Positions 20,765 through 25,350 of a stretch of DNA of 64,000 nt are shown in pieces (position 1 is the stretch's first letter; each line of letters starts with the position of its first letter). The notes beneath the pieces are model-generated. The model saw nothing but the letters and a program-made list of their open reading frames with translations, was not told the origin of the DNA and searched no databases. Source of the DNA: Thermoproteus uzoniensis 768-20 (lineage in GTDB: Archaea; Thermoproteota; Thermoprotei; Thermoproteales; Thermoproteaceae); the NCBI RefSeq assembly GCF_000193375.1, contig NC_015315.1, forward strand, positions 1,558,622 to 1,622,621, given 5' to 3'. A program made the position numbers and the translations under genes.

Positions 20765-21778
20765 GTGCCGAGGCCGAGGAGGAGAGAGGAGGCGCCGGAG
20801 GAGGCTGAGGTGGAGGTAGTGGAGCGGCCCTCGGAGAAACAGGCCGAGCTAGACGTAGAGGAGCTGGAGGGTATCGGCAAGGTGACTGGCCAGAAGCTTA
20901 AAGAGAGGGGTTATTACACAGTGAGGGATCTCGCCTTCGCGTCCGTCAAGGAGATCGCCGATATTATAGGCAACGAGGAGAGGGCGGCCCAGATAATAGA
21001 GGCCGCCAGGAGCATGCTGGGGCTGTCCAGCTTCATATCGGCTCTAGACGTGTATAGAAAACGCGTCAATATAAAGCGCATATCCACGGGGGTCCGCTCC
21101 CTCGACGAGTTGTTGAACGGAGGCGTGGAGACGGGCGCGGTGACCGAGGTAGCGGGCGAGTTCGGCGCTGGGAAGACGCAGTTCTGCCACCAGCTGGCCG
21201 TCATGGTGCAACTGCCGGAGGATAGGGGCGGGCTCAACGCCAAGGCCATATACATAGATACGGAGAACACCTTCCGCCCGGAGCGCATAACCCAGATGGC
21301 CAGAGCGCGCGGGCTCGACCCCGACCAGGCGCTCAAGAACATATACTACGCCAGGGCCTACTCGTCCGACCACCAGATGATCCTGGTCGAGCAGGCGAGG
21401 CGTATCATAAAACAAGATAACGTAAAGCTACTGGTGGTCGATTCTATAGTGGCGCATTTCCGCGCCGAGTTTCCGGGCAGGGAGAACCTCGCAGAGAGGC
21501 AACAGAAGCTCAACAAACACATAGCGGATCTCCTTAAGATAGCCGACGCCTACGACGTGGCGGTGGTGGTGACCAACCAAGTGATGGCTCAGCCCGACGT
21601 GTTCTTCGGCAACCCGCTGAGGCCCGCCGGAGGCAACGTGCTGGCCCACGGAGCGACCTACCGCATATGGCTTAGGAAGAGCAAGGAGAATATAAGAATA
21701 GCAAAAATCTTCGACTCGCCTTACCACCCCGAGCGCGAAGCCACGTTCAAGATAACTGAGGAGGGCCTAACGGACTAA
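20765..21778 (+). CDS. radA: DNA repair and recombination protein RadA
   Basis: RadA forms filaments on single-stranded DNA and catalyses strand exchange. The 337-residue protein has an acidic N-terminus, a helix-hairpin-helix domain (about 30-85: [19 protein letters not shown]), the polymerisation segment around [12 protein letters not shown], and the ATPase core. Walker A is GEFGAGKT (131-138), Walker B is [11 protein letters not shown], and the L2 region is [14 protein letters not shown]. Length and motifs are those of the main RadA, not a paralogue. GTG 20765 has TTTATATTATTAGG about 25 bases upstream. Confidence 0.97.
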
Positions 21779-22398
21779 ATAAGGGATAAATAATTATATA
21801 TATATTCGAATTTAAAGTTGTTTATAACGAAATTTCTAAATCTACTGTAAAGATCATATATCGGGACTCTCTTGGCGCGCAGGTAGAGCTCCTCGGCGAG
21901 GCTTCTAAAGCCGGCAACCGCGATGCTGACGGTGGCGTCTAGGGCCAGCGTGTACACGAGAGATCTCTTCACGTCGTCGGCCTCCACCGGTATGTCCTGC
22001 GGATTGAAGGAGCCCGCCAGCAGCTGGACGTCCCTCCGCGCTATATATAGGTCCACCACGCGCCTATATAGTGCTATCGACAACAACTCCGCGAGCTCGC
22101 CGCCTACGTGTTCAGGCCGCGCCCATATGGACGCCGCATCTACGTCGTTCAACGCGCTTATGGCGGCCAGCTCGCGCCATAGAGATAGCTTGTCGGGCCT
22201 CACCACAACCAACGCGTAGTGGCCCTCGCGCTCGATAGCCCTGGCTGTCTCCACATCGGCTCCCGCCAGCTCTCTTGCAGAATCCCTGTCGGCGAATATG
22301 AGGACGACGTCGACCGGCATCGCGCCGAACTCCCTCAACGCCGCCAGCACCTCCTCCATCTCTCTCCTATCCACAGGGCGTAGCTCCAGCACATCCAC
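21775..22398 (-). CDS. Hypothetical protein
   Basis: This protein of 207 residues starts at GTG 22398, about 26 bases after a minus-strand TTTAAAG box. It shows alternating strands and helices ([36 protein letters not shown]) followed by a helical half, with a terminal AT-rich stretch coding [17 protein letters not shown]. No family is recognised. Its stop overlaps the radA stop by four bases in convergent orientation. Confidence 0.6.
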
Positions 22399-22446: not shown

Positions 22447-24033
22447 ATGGGCTTTGACGTGATATTGACCACGGACAGAGGCATGATGAGCAACTACCAC
22501 GGGAAGGAGTTTTTGGGGTTCGGCACCACTGGGCCCGTATTCGTAGAGCTCCCCTTCGGCCTCTCCGAGAAGTTCCACACTTTTCTCTTCGCCCCCAAGA
22601 TTAAGACGGACAAGATGGGGAGGCCCATACAGGCGCCCTACGGCATGAGGAAAATAGAGGCGAAGTTGCTCGACGCAGGGATAAACGCCGCCATAATAGA
22701 TCCCGACTACGTCCCGCGATATCTTAAGAGCGCCAAGATCTTGATGTTGAGCCACCACGACTACTTCGGAGTAAATCCGCCGTCAAGCACATGGGGGGTG
22801 ATATTGGGCAAGGAGACCCTCAACGCGTATCTCTTCAGGAAGTTCATGGAGCGGATAGAGAAAGATATATGGGAGGCCAAGAGGGCGAGCGGCCTAAAGG
22901 TTATGGTCGGAGGGCCGGCAGCCTGGCAGTGGCTCTACTACCCCGACCTAGTAGAGCGTTGGGGTATAGACACGATATTCGACGGGGAGGGGGAGAAGCT
23001 AATAGTCGAGGTCGTCAAGAACACGCTGGAGGGGAAGACCCCGCCTAGATATATCTACGTGGGGGCCTCCGAGGCTCCGAGCGTGGACGAGATCTCCACG
23101 ATCAAGGGAGCCTCTATAAACGGCCTGGTCGAGATAGGCAGGGGTTGCCCCAGAGGTTGCGCCTTCTGCTCAGTCACTCTGAGGCCTCTGAGGTGGTACC
23201 CCCTCAGCAAGATCGAGGAGGAGTTGAAGGTGAACGCGAGAGCCGGCGTCGTCGACGGCATACTGCACTCGGACGAGGTGCCGCTTTACGGCTCTAACGG
23301 GGTGGAGCTGAACCCCACGGCGCTTATAGAGCTGCACAAGTTGGCCAAGAAGTACTACAGAAAAGTGGGGTGGAGCCACACGACCTTCGTAGCCGTCTTG
23401 TTGGCCGAGAAGAAGTACGGAAAGCTCATGACGAAGATCGCCGACATAATAAAAGACGAGCATCAGGACTGGTGGGGCGCCGAAATAGGGCTAGAGACCG
23501 GCTCTATTAGGGTGGCCAAACAGATAATGCCCGGCAAGGCAGCGCCCTATAAGATAGAGCAGTGGCACGACATAGTTGAAGAGTCCATGGCCATAATGCA
23601 CGAGCTCAAGCTAATACCTGCAGTGACCCTCATAGTCGGCCTCCCCGGCGAGCAGCCGGACGACGTGATCCAGACAATAGAGCTGATAGAAAGGCTTAAG
23701 CCCTACAGATCTCTGATAGTCCCGTTGTTCTACGTGCCCATGAGCCACGTCAAGGCCGAGAAGACGGGGTGGCTGGACAAGATGAACCTCTACCCAGAAC
23801 ACATAGACCTCTTGAAGGTGGTCGCCAAACACTCTATCTTCTGGGCTCGCGATATAGTCAACAAGTTCTACTTTAAGGGCATCCACTACGCGCCTATTAG
23901 ATTATTAACCAATTACTTCATAAATTATGTCGAGAAGAGGCTTGATAAGGCCGAGGCCGACATCGAGCGCTATAAGGAGATGTTGAGGGCTAAGTGGAGC
24001 GAGAAACGCCTAGAGGTTCTGAGATATGCCTAA
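22447..24033 (+). CDS. B12-binding radical SAM protein, GDGT ring synthase (Grs)-like
   Basis: The 528-residue protein has an N-terminal B12-binding-like domain (to about residue 190, with VMVGGPAAWQW and DTIFDGEGEKLI). The radical SAM core follows, with its 4Fe-4S ligands C234, C238 and C241 in GRGCPRGCAFCSV. Downstream are EIGLETGS, VTLIVGLPGE and a C-terminal helical domain. The opening TTDRGMMSNYHGKEFLGFG and the RGCPRGCAFCSVTLRPLRWYP stretch look like the Sulfolobus GrsA/GrsB proteins that insert cyclopentane rings into tetraether lipids. That comparison is from memory. Tetraether synthase or another lipid radical SAM enzyme is the alternative. Confidence 0.75.
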   Translation: MGFDVILTTDRGMMSNYHGKEFLGFGTTGPVFVELPFGLSEKFHTFLFAPKIKTDKMGRPIQAPYGMRKIEAKLLDAGINAAIIDPDYVPRYLKSAKILMLSHHDYFGVNPPSSTWGVILGKETLNAYLFRKFMERIEKDIWEAKRASGLKVMVGGPAAWQWLYYPDLVERWGIDTIFDGEGEKLIVEVVKNTLEGKTPPRYIYVGASEAPSVDEISTIKGASINGLVEIGRGCPRGCAFCSVTLRPLRWYPLSKIEEELKVNARAGVVDGILHSDEVPLYGSNGVELNPTALIELHKLAKKYYRKVGWSHTTFVAVLLAEKKYGKLMTKIADIIKDEHQDWWGAEIGLETGSIRVAKQIMPGKAAPYKIEQWHDIVEESMAIMHELKLIPAVTLIVGLPGEQPDDVIQTIELIERLKPYRSLIVPLFYVPMSHVKAEKTGWLDKMNLYPEHIDLLKVVAKHSIFWARDIVNKFYFKGIHYAPIRLLTNYFINYVEKRLDKAEADIERYKEMLRAKWSEKRLEVLRYA

Positions 24034-24483
24034 GGCCTCAGCCAATTTCCTCGTCAGATCCACCACAACCCCGCGCCGCATATGCGCCTCCAGCTTTGCC
24101 AGTTCGCACAAGGCGCCGCAACTAGACCTGCAACACGACAGCTTGACCTCGCCGTCGCATTGAGCCGAGTCGATCCCGCCACAGATATGCTTGGATAGAT
24201 AGGACCACGCCTCGTTAAAGAGAGTAGAACGGCTTATGCCGCTTTTCAACGCTATCTTATTTACTATTCCATAGATATCTGTAATATATATTATTGATTC
24301 ATATCGATAATTTCTTAAAAGAGTTTCTATACATGATAGTTTATATCTAGGCAACTCCGCTATATTTAGGGTAGAAACCCCGCACGACGACATTATGTAT
24401 CTGACCGCGTCGTCCACGGACTCGTCCGCCTTGACTACTGCTATTACGCCGTCTCTCCAGTCGGGCATGGCTATACCGAACAC
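24010..24483 (-). CDS. Hypothetical cysteine-rich protein
   Basis: From GTG 24483 the protein has 157 residues, beginning VFGIAMPDWRDGVIAVVKAD. Its middle (24,230-24,345) lies in an AT-rich patch encoding RYKLSCIETLLRNYRYESII. The C-terminal part has CGG, CDG, CCRSSCGALC: seven cysteines in 35 residues, enough for an iron-sulfur or zinc site. No family is recognised. ATG 24468 is an alternative start. It shares an AT-rich promoter region with the divergent zinc-finger gene, and its 3' end overlaps the radical SAM gene. Confidence 0.55.
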   Translation of the reverse strand: MFGIAMPDWRDGVIAVVKADESVDDAVRYIMSSCGVSTLNIAELPRYKLSCIETLLRNYRYESIIYITDIYGIVNKIALKSGISRSTLFNEAWSYLSKHICGGIDSAQCDGEVKLSCCRSSCGALCELAKLEAHMRRGVVVDLTRKLAEALGISQNL

Positions 24484-24492
24484 GTAAGGCCG

Positions 24493-24511
24493 GGCGTCAA
24501 ATTTAATAAAA
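24493..24511. promoter_or_regulatory. Divergent promoter of cysteine-rich gene and zinc-finger gene
   Basis: CAAATTTAATAAAAG provides a TATA for the plus-strand ATG at 24530 (about 26 bases away). On the minus strand it provides one for the start at 24483. The gap between the two starts is only 46 bases. Confidence 0.5.
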
Positions 24512-24529
24512 GCTCCTCCCTCTGCCCGC

Positions 24530-24850
24530 ATGCCCGGCGAGGTCTGCTTAATATGTCAAGGTAAGGGGGATGGGTATCTCGCGGCGTCCACCGAATATAA
24601 ATGCACCATATGCGGCGCCCGGATAACTTGGGACGACGCGGTGTCGCACTACATGAAGCACGTGAAGTTCTCGGGAAACGACGCCATCTGCGGGATATGT
24701 AATGCTAAAGTAAAGAAAACCGATATAAGAAACCACATACGTAGCCACTTCGCGATAGGCGAGGGCAGTAGGTATTTCTGCGGCGTCTGCGGCAGGGAGT
24801 TCGTCGACCGCGAGAGCTTGTCCGTGCATATAATGAGGACACACGAATGA
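24530..24850 (+). CDS. Triple C2H2 zinc-finger protein
   Basis: The 106-residue protein is three C2H2 fingers in a row: C25-C28-H40-H44, C54-C57-H69-H73 and C84-C87-H100-H105. Spacings are C-x2-C-x11-H-x3-H or close to it. An extra CLIC pair is near the N-terminus. Such tandem arrays bind DNA in eukaryotes; single fingers are more usual in archaea. ATG 24530 is 26 bases after the divergent TATA. The stop overlaps the ATG of carS, so the finger protein and a lipid enzyme are made from one message. Function is inferred. Confidence 0.78.
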   Translation: MPGEVCLICQGKGDGYLAASTEYKCTICGARITWDDAVSHYMKHVKFSGNDAICGICNAKVKKTDIRNHIRSHFAIGEGSRYFCGVCGREFVDRESLSVHIMRTHE

Positions 24851-25350
24851 GTATACTGCAGCTACTGGCATATTCACTAGTGCTTATATGGCCTCCCTAC
24901 GTGGCCAACGGGCTGGCCGTGCTGGCCTCGGCTCTGCCGAGAAGACATCCGATAGACTTCGGCAGGAGTTGGCGCGGCTCTAGAATATTTGGCGACGGGA
25001 AGACCTTCGAGGGCTTTGCGATAGGGCTCGCGCTAGGCACTACCATAGGGTGGTTGCCCAATCTGCTGTACAGCGTCCTTAGCGTGGGAGATGCGGCGGT
25101 GCTCTCGGCGTCGGCCCTTGTAGGGGATCTGGTCGGCGCCTTTATAAAAAGGAGGCTGTGCCTTCCGCGCGGACACCCTGCATTTCCCCTAGACCAGCTG
25201 GACTTCCTGCTCATGTCTCTATTAGTCTACTCTCTATACGCGCAGATACCGACAACAGCTATATTTATTTCCGTGATAATTACGCCGGCCATCCACAGAG
25301 CGACCAATATAGTGGCTTATAGGCTGAGGCTGAAGAAAGAACCTTGGTAA
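24847..25350 (+). CDS. carS: CDP-archaeol synthase
   Basis: CarS activates unsaturated archaetidic acid with CTP, forming the CDP-archaeol from which all polar head groups are added. The 167-residue membrane protein has about five helices. The family motifs are WPPYVANGLAV at the start, SRIFGDGKTFEGF in the first loop, and GDLVGAFIKRRLCLPRGHP followed by LDQLDFL. These Asp and Lys residues hold the metal-nucleotide. It is translationally coupled to the zinc-finger gene. GGGP synthase, two steps earlier in the pathway, is at 3.3 kb. Confidence 0.92.
   Translation: MSILQLLAYSLVLIWPPYVANGLAVLASALPRRHPIDFGRSWRGSRIFGDGKTFEGFAIGLALGTTIGWLPNLLYSVLSVGDAAVLSASALVGDLVGAFIKRRLCLPRGHPAFPLDQLDFLLMSLLVYSLYAQIPTTAIFISVIITPAIHRATNIVAYRLRLKKEPW

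Follow-up and report, generated by a model that had tools for sequence, protein, structure and literature searches.

The window analysed here is a 64,000-nucleotide stretch of the genome of Thermoproteus uzoniensis 768-20, which is a single contig of 1,936,063 bp. At positions 22447-24033 its forward strand carries an intact open reading frame that runs from ATG to stop and encodes 528 amino acids. Given that orthologues in other Thermoproteus genomes are 87-94% identical and begin at approximately the same position, we conclude that this is a real gene rather than a chance reading frame and that its start is sound. The gene, its internal features and its neighbours are as follows:

21775..22398, minus strand: 207-aa ORF, the divergent neighbour, with no Pfam match; found beside grsA across the Thermoproteaceae examined
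22447..24033, plus strand: probable grsA orthologue, 528 aa, with an N-terminal Rossmann-type (B12-binding-like) region, a radical SAM core and a C-terminal helical domain
22447..23040, plus strand: residues 1-198, alpha/beta region at the position of the cobalamin domain of B12 radical SAM enzymes; the resemblance is at fold level only
23146..23169, plus strand: codons of CPRGCAFC, residues 234-241 (CX3CX2C), the motif binding the radical SAM [4Fe-4S] cluster
24010..24531, minus strand: 173-aa ORF, its 3' end sharing 24 bases with the end of grsA
24847..25350, plus strand: CarS, CDP-archaeol synthase (PF01864), the lipid gene of a conserved block

The sole Pfam match in the protein is Radical_SAM (PF04055, 4.8e-13, residues 228-414), and no GrsA-specific model fired in the Pfam and NCBIfam searches. 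The protein contains exactly three cysteines, C234, C238 and C241, all of them within CPRGCAFC, which indicates that the protein has no second cysteine-ligated cluster. The CX3CX2C cysteines are invariant in 58 of 58 relatives; no other cysteine is conserved across the whole family.

The initial annotation had named unassigned genes, a C2H2 zinc-finger protein and CarS as the only neighbours. The immediate genes were correctly described, and Pfam confirmed both the zinc finger (PF00096) and CarS (PF01864) near grsA; "only" does not hold, since there are also radA, a TYW2/Trm5-type methyltransferase gene and the genes of the A-type ATPase within 2-4 kb. A DUF2070-radA-grsA-carS-atpA block is conserved as a whole in the genomes examined from Thermoproteus and from its sister genus, which we take to be Pyrobaculum (its genomes taken as P. 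aerophilum, P. calidifontis, P. islandicum and P. neutrophilum), and the DUF2070-to-atpA block is lost in Vulcanisaeta, Caldivirga and Sulfolobus. Because the whole block reflects Thermoproteaceae synteny, the linkage of grsA to carS is weak evidence of function, and we rejected the reading of the pair as a functional lipid cluster.

The 207-aa ORF adjoins grsA in Thermoproteus, in Pyrobaculum and in two Vulcanisaeta-group genomes (28-30%) despite the rearrangement of the block there; we claim no joint action with GrsA. The 173-aa ORF, whose C-terminal part is cysteine-rich, is conserved in Thermoproteaceae.

Placement among the archaeal lipid radical SAM enzymes

Sulfolobus genetics led to the identification of GrsA and GrsB, and our reference was a genome (G077) that we take to be S. 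acidocaldarius DSM 639. It contains just two full-length relatives that carry the cysteine motif, at 1,353,522-1,355,039 and 199,508-200,860, and these are 50-51% and 32-34% identical to the T. uzoniensis protein, respectively. The gene at 1,354 kb lies two genes away from a TFS gene. With TFS2 being Saci_1587 (PMC10653856), and with Saci_1585 and Saci_0240 being the locus tags of GrsA and GrsB (PMC8473941), this two-gene distance makes the radical SAM gene at 1,354 kb Saci_1585. The naming draws on gene order and on the presumed identity of the genome, and it assumes that the TFS gene is TFS2 and no other paralogue; the spacing of tags along the genome agrees with it. The position of the other gene, at 199 kb, is consistent with Saci_0240, GrsB. 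By our own comparison the two reference proteins are 32% identical, next to a published value of 31% (PMC8473941). The C-7 rings of GDGT-1 to -4 come from GrsA, after which C-3 rings are added by GrsB (PMC10465181).

When compared with S. acidocaldarius GrsA, the T. uzoniensis protein aligned at 50% identity over 508 residues (3-509) with a score of 534 bits, versus 32% and 235 bits for S. acidocaldarius GrsB and 32% for the GrsB of its own genome. The best match with Saci_1585 is reciprocal, as S. acidocaldarius GrsA scores 534 bits against the target and 193 against T. uzoniensis GrsB. An IQ-TREE analysis of 42 proteins recovered a GrsA clade with 100/100 support, whose 22 rows include the target and S. 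acidocaldarius GrsA, and a separate 100/100 GrsB clade composed of Sulfolobales and Thermoproteus; a 74-row tree agrees. The initial annotation had proposed a GDGT ring synthase-like radical SAM enzyme with opening and cluster-binding sequences like those of GrsA/GrsB. Both points are borne out: target and Saci_1585 share full-length homology, the position of CX3CX2C and the N-terminal signature TTDRxxMxNxHGKEFLGF, and the 50% identity together with the 100/100 clade sharpens the proposal to a GrsA orthologue. Nor did the tree refute it by drawing the target toward Tes or unrelated B12 radical SAM enzymes, since it falls inside the GrsA clade and apart from GrsB. Collectively, these comparisons indicate that the gene is very probably the grsA of T. 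uzoniensis, whose product, by orthology with Saci_1585, would close the C-7 rings of GDGTs.

The two enzymes differ in several respects. Compared with Saci_1585, T. uzoniensis GrsA has a short stretch inserted around residues 31-36 and extends further at its C-terminus, and its gene sits in a radA/carS/atp block, as opposed to the his genes, serS and TFS that neighbour the Sulfolobus gene. The insertion (residues about 31-36, VFVEL-P) is specific to the family in Thermoproteales GrsA, in which the C-terminus is longer than in Sulfolobales GrsA. These features lend something to the idea that the protein is GrsA by descent with an activity shifted in Thermoproteales, toward another ring position or toward diethers rather than GDGTs, and 50% identity across orders leaves the ring position unfixed for Thermoproteales GrsA. 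However, the T. uzoniensis protein retains every near-invariant column of the family, and nothing we saw pointed to a new substrate; a shifted activity is thus improbable in our judgement.

GrsB shares the superfamily layout and whole-length homology with the target but is only 32% identical to it and belongs to the other 100/100 clade. A GrsB orthologue is encoded elsewhere in the T. uzoniensis genome, at positions 1,205,587-1,207,218 (L002:1168-2802, minus strand); this 544-aa protein shares 53% identity with S. acidocaldarius GrsB and 31% with S. acidocaldarius GrsA. We therefore rejected GrsB as the identity of the target, which lies outside the GrsB clade and whose genome holds the Saci_0240 counterpart at this separate position.

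We also considered Tes, the tetraether synthase, given that both are radical SAM enzymes of archaeal lipids with similar length and that the target's family is widespread in the phylum. T. uzoniensis encodes a distinct and clear Tes at ~436 kb (1.4e-135 to the MJ0619 structure, 7tol; NCBIfam Tes 3.5e-191), with which GrsA aligns only around the shared cysteine motif (BLAST E = 0.043). The two act on the same lipids, yet Tes carries extra cysteines and a zinc ribbon, with 12 cysteines in Tes versus 3 in GrsA. On these grounds we rejected Tes, and the chance that the target is a tetraether synthase is vanishingly small.

In S. acidocaldarius, two candidates for Saci_1785 were seen by position, of 584 aa and 399 aa. 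A Grs-like protein of 385-399 aa occurs in S. acidocaldarius (L098:2319-3518, minus strand) and a sister genome (L079) in which CX3CX2C is entirely lost, the 399-aa form having cysteines only at 290 and 345; its sequence suggests a GrsB-like paralogue that is catalytically dead.

Fold and putative reaction of GrsA

An AlphaFold2 model of T. uzoniensis GrsA built from the 58 relatives reached a mean pLDDT of 91.2 and a pTM of 0.91. A Foldseek search of this model against the PDB returned MgmA, MiaB, TsrM, AprD4, RimO, OxsB, CysS and TokK as top matches, a mixture of cobalamin-dependent radical SAM enzymes and MiaB-type enzymes that have a similar N-terminal Rossmann-like domain. The best matches over most of the chain were MgmA (PDB 9ccb, TMt 0.63) and TsrM (6wte, TMt 0.48). 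Given these matches, the B12-binding plus radical SAM layout assigned to the gene initially is right as a statement about fold, with TsrM, OxsB, CysS and TokK as the cobalamin-dependent counterparts. At the level of sequence, the Pfam B12-binding model (PF02310) had no match in T. uzoniensis GrsA and matched weakly in 29 of the 58 relatives, and the DxHxxG motif is absent from the T. uzoniensis sequence. From the predicted fold only, we consider the N-terminal domain a putative cobalamin binder.

The same results bear on whether the protein could belong to another pathway as a cobalamin-dependent radical SAM methyltransferase, MgmA/TsrM-like or MiaB-like, and merely resemble Grs. MgmA and MiaB are the closest solved structures, and the best NCBIfam models are the B12-SAM families MJ_1487 and MJ_0865. 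However, all NCBIfam scores fall far under the cut-offs (74.7 versus 251 and 50.7 versus 360), and S. acidocaldarius GrsA and GrsB themselves show the same sub-threshold profile. MgmA and TsrM, which are cobalamin radical SAM methyltransferases, have a fold like that of GrsA but share only ~14-18% identity with it, act on another substrate class and are not orthologous. Together with the 50% full-length identity to GrsA and the 100/100 clade, this makes a methyltransferase of another pathway highly improbable, and an MgmA/MiaB-type identity was rejected on sequence and tree.

As a GrsA orthologue, the protein would be soluble and would use radical SAM chemistry on GDGT tetraethers once Tes has linked the archaeol chains. 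By homology, the [4Fe-4S] cluster would reduce SAM to yield a 5'-deoxyadenosyl radical, which may then take a hydrogen off the biphytanyl chain at an unactivated carbon. Formation of a C-C bond would close the cyclopentane at C-7, so that each ring formed removes two hydrogens overall. Because its three cysteines all belong to the SAM-cluster motif, GrsA cannot follow Tes in using an auxiliary cluster held by cysteines. The second step would thus have to run through the cobalamin-type N-terminal domain, through another SAM molecule or by direct radical chemistry, and completion of the oxidation with the help of cobalamin or of another SAM appears likeliest.

Distribution of Grs-type genes and predicted ring number

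Among 200 sampled genomes of Thermoproteota, 180 contain a match at E <= 1e-20, and approximately 95 contain a match of GrsA grade (E < 1e-120). GrsA-type genes also occur in Thermoplasmata, Bathyarchaeota and others. No GrsA-type gene was found in two genomes that we take to be those of Aeropyrum pernix and Ignicoccus hospitalis, both of which keep Tes. The GDGT of I. hospitalis is ring-free. A. pernix makes few GDGTs (PMC9905601). The absence of the gene from these two organisms therefore agrees with their lipids. This coincidence of gene absence with lineages making few or no ringed GDGTs argues further against a shifted activity in Thermoproteales, an idea to which the reliance of Pyrobaculum-type genomes on a single GrsA copy would otherwise lend some weight. 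A GrsA-type gene is present in a genome that is presumably that of Ignisphaera aggregans. This species is a ring maker, and its homologue lies outside GrsA in a published tree (PMC8473941).

GrsB is much rarer, being found in 28 of 299 genomes at E <= 1e-90, mostly of Sulfolobaceae or the genus Thermoproteus, and the sampled relatives of Thermoproteus GrsB are mainly from Sulfolobales. Both GrsA and GrsB are encoded in all four Thermoproteus genomes (4/4), versus GrsA only in nine of ten Pyrobaculum genomes, the exception being a fragmented draft. With GrsA responsible for C-7 rings and GrsB for C-3 rings, this gene content predicts GDGT-5 and above only in Thermoproteus. We tentatively propose, at somewhat less than even chance, that gene content sets ring number in Thermoproteaceae, such that Thermoproteus with GrsA and GrsB would exceed four rings and Pyrobaculum with GrsA would stop at four, the difference having arisen by lateral transfer of GrsB into Thermoproteus or by its loss from Pyrobaculum. 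Our literature search returned no lipid ring profile for T. uzoniensis and no usable ring counts for Thermoproteus or Pyrobaculum.

Two further groups of Grs-type genes were observed. Genomes of the Vulcanisaeta/Caldivirga type (family f2; L119, L122, L126, L133 and L135) carry a third, divergent Grs-type clade in place of GrsB, with VLTGEIATMSDTHG... and CGRGCxFC, that is about 30-37% identical to GrsA and GrsB. A small Thermoproteota genome (G190, 1,577,284 bp) encodes six Grs-type paralogues (L069, L075, L077, L082, L087 and L090), two of them in tandem, and several of these group with homologues of a family that is probably Nitrosopumilaceae (f8). If this organism is an ammonia oxidiser, its paralogues are possible candidates for the cyclohexane-ring step of crenarchaeol.

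T. uzoniensis GrsA is an ordinary, well-conserved member of an already known family. The rings of GDGTs help archaeal membranes to withstand heat and acid, and proxies for past temperature are built on them. The three-cysteine count narrows the mechanism of ring closure, for which it rules out a cysteine-ligated auxiliary cluster. Thermoproteus, with GrsA and a separate GrsB, and its GrsA-only relatives form a hyperthermophile pair whose predicted ring positions would be checkable by lipid analysis alone.
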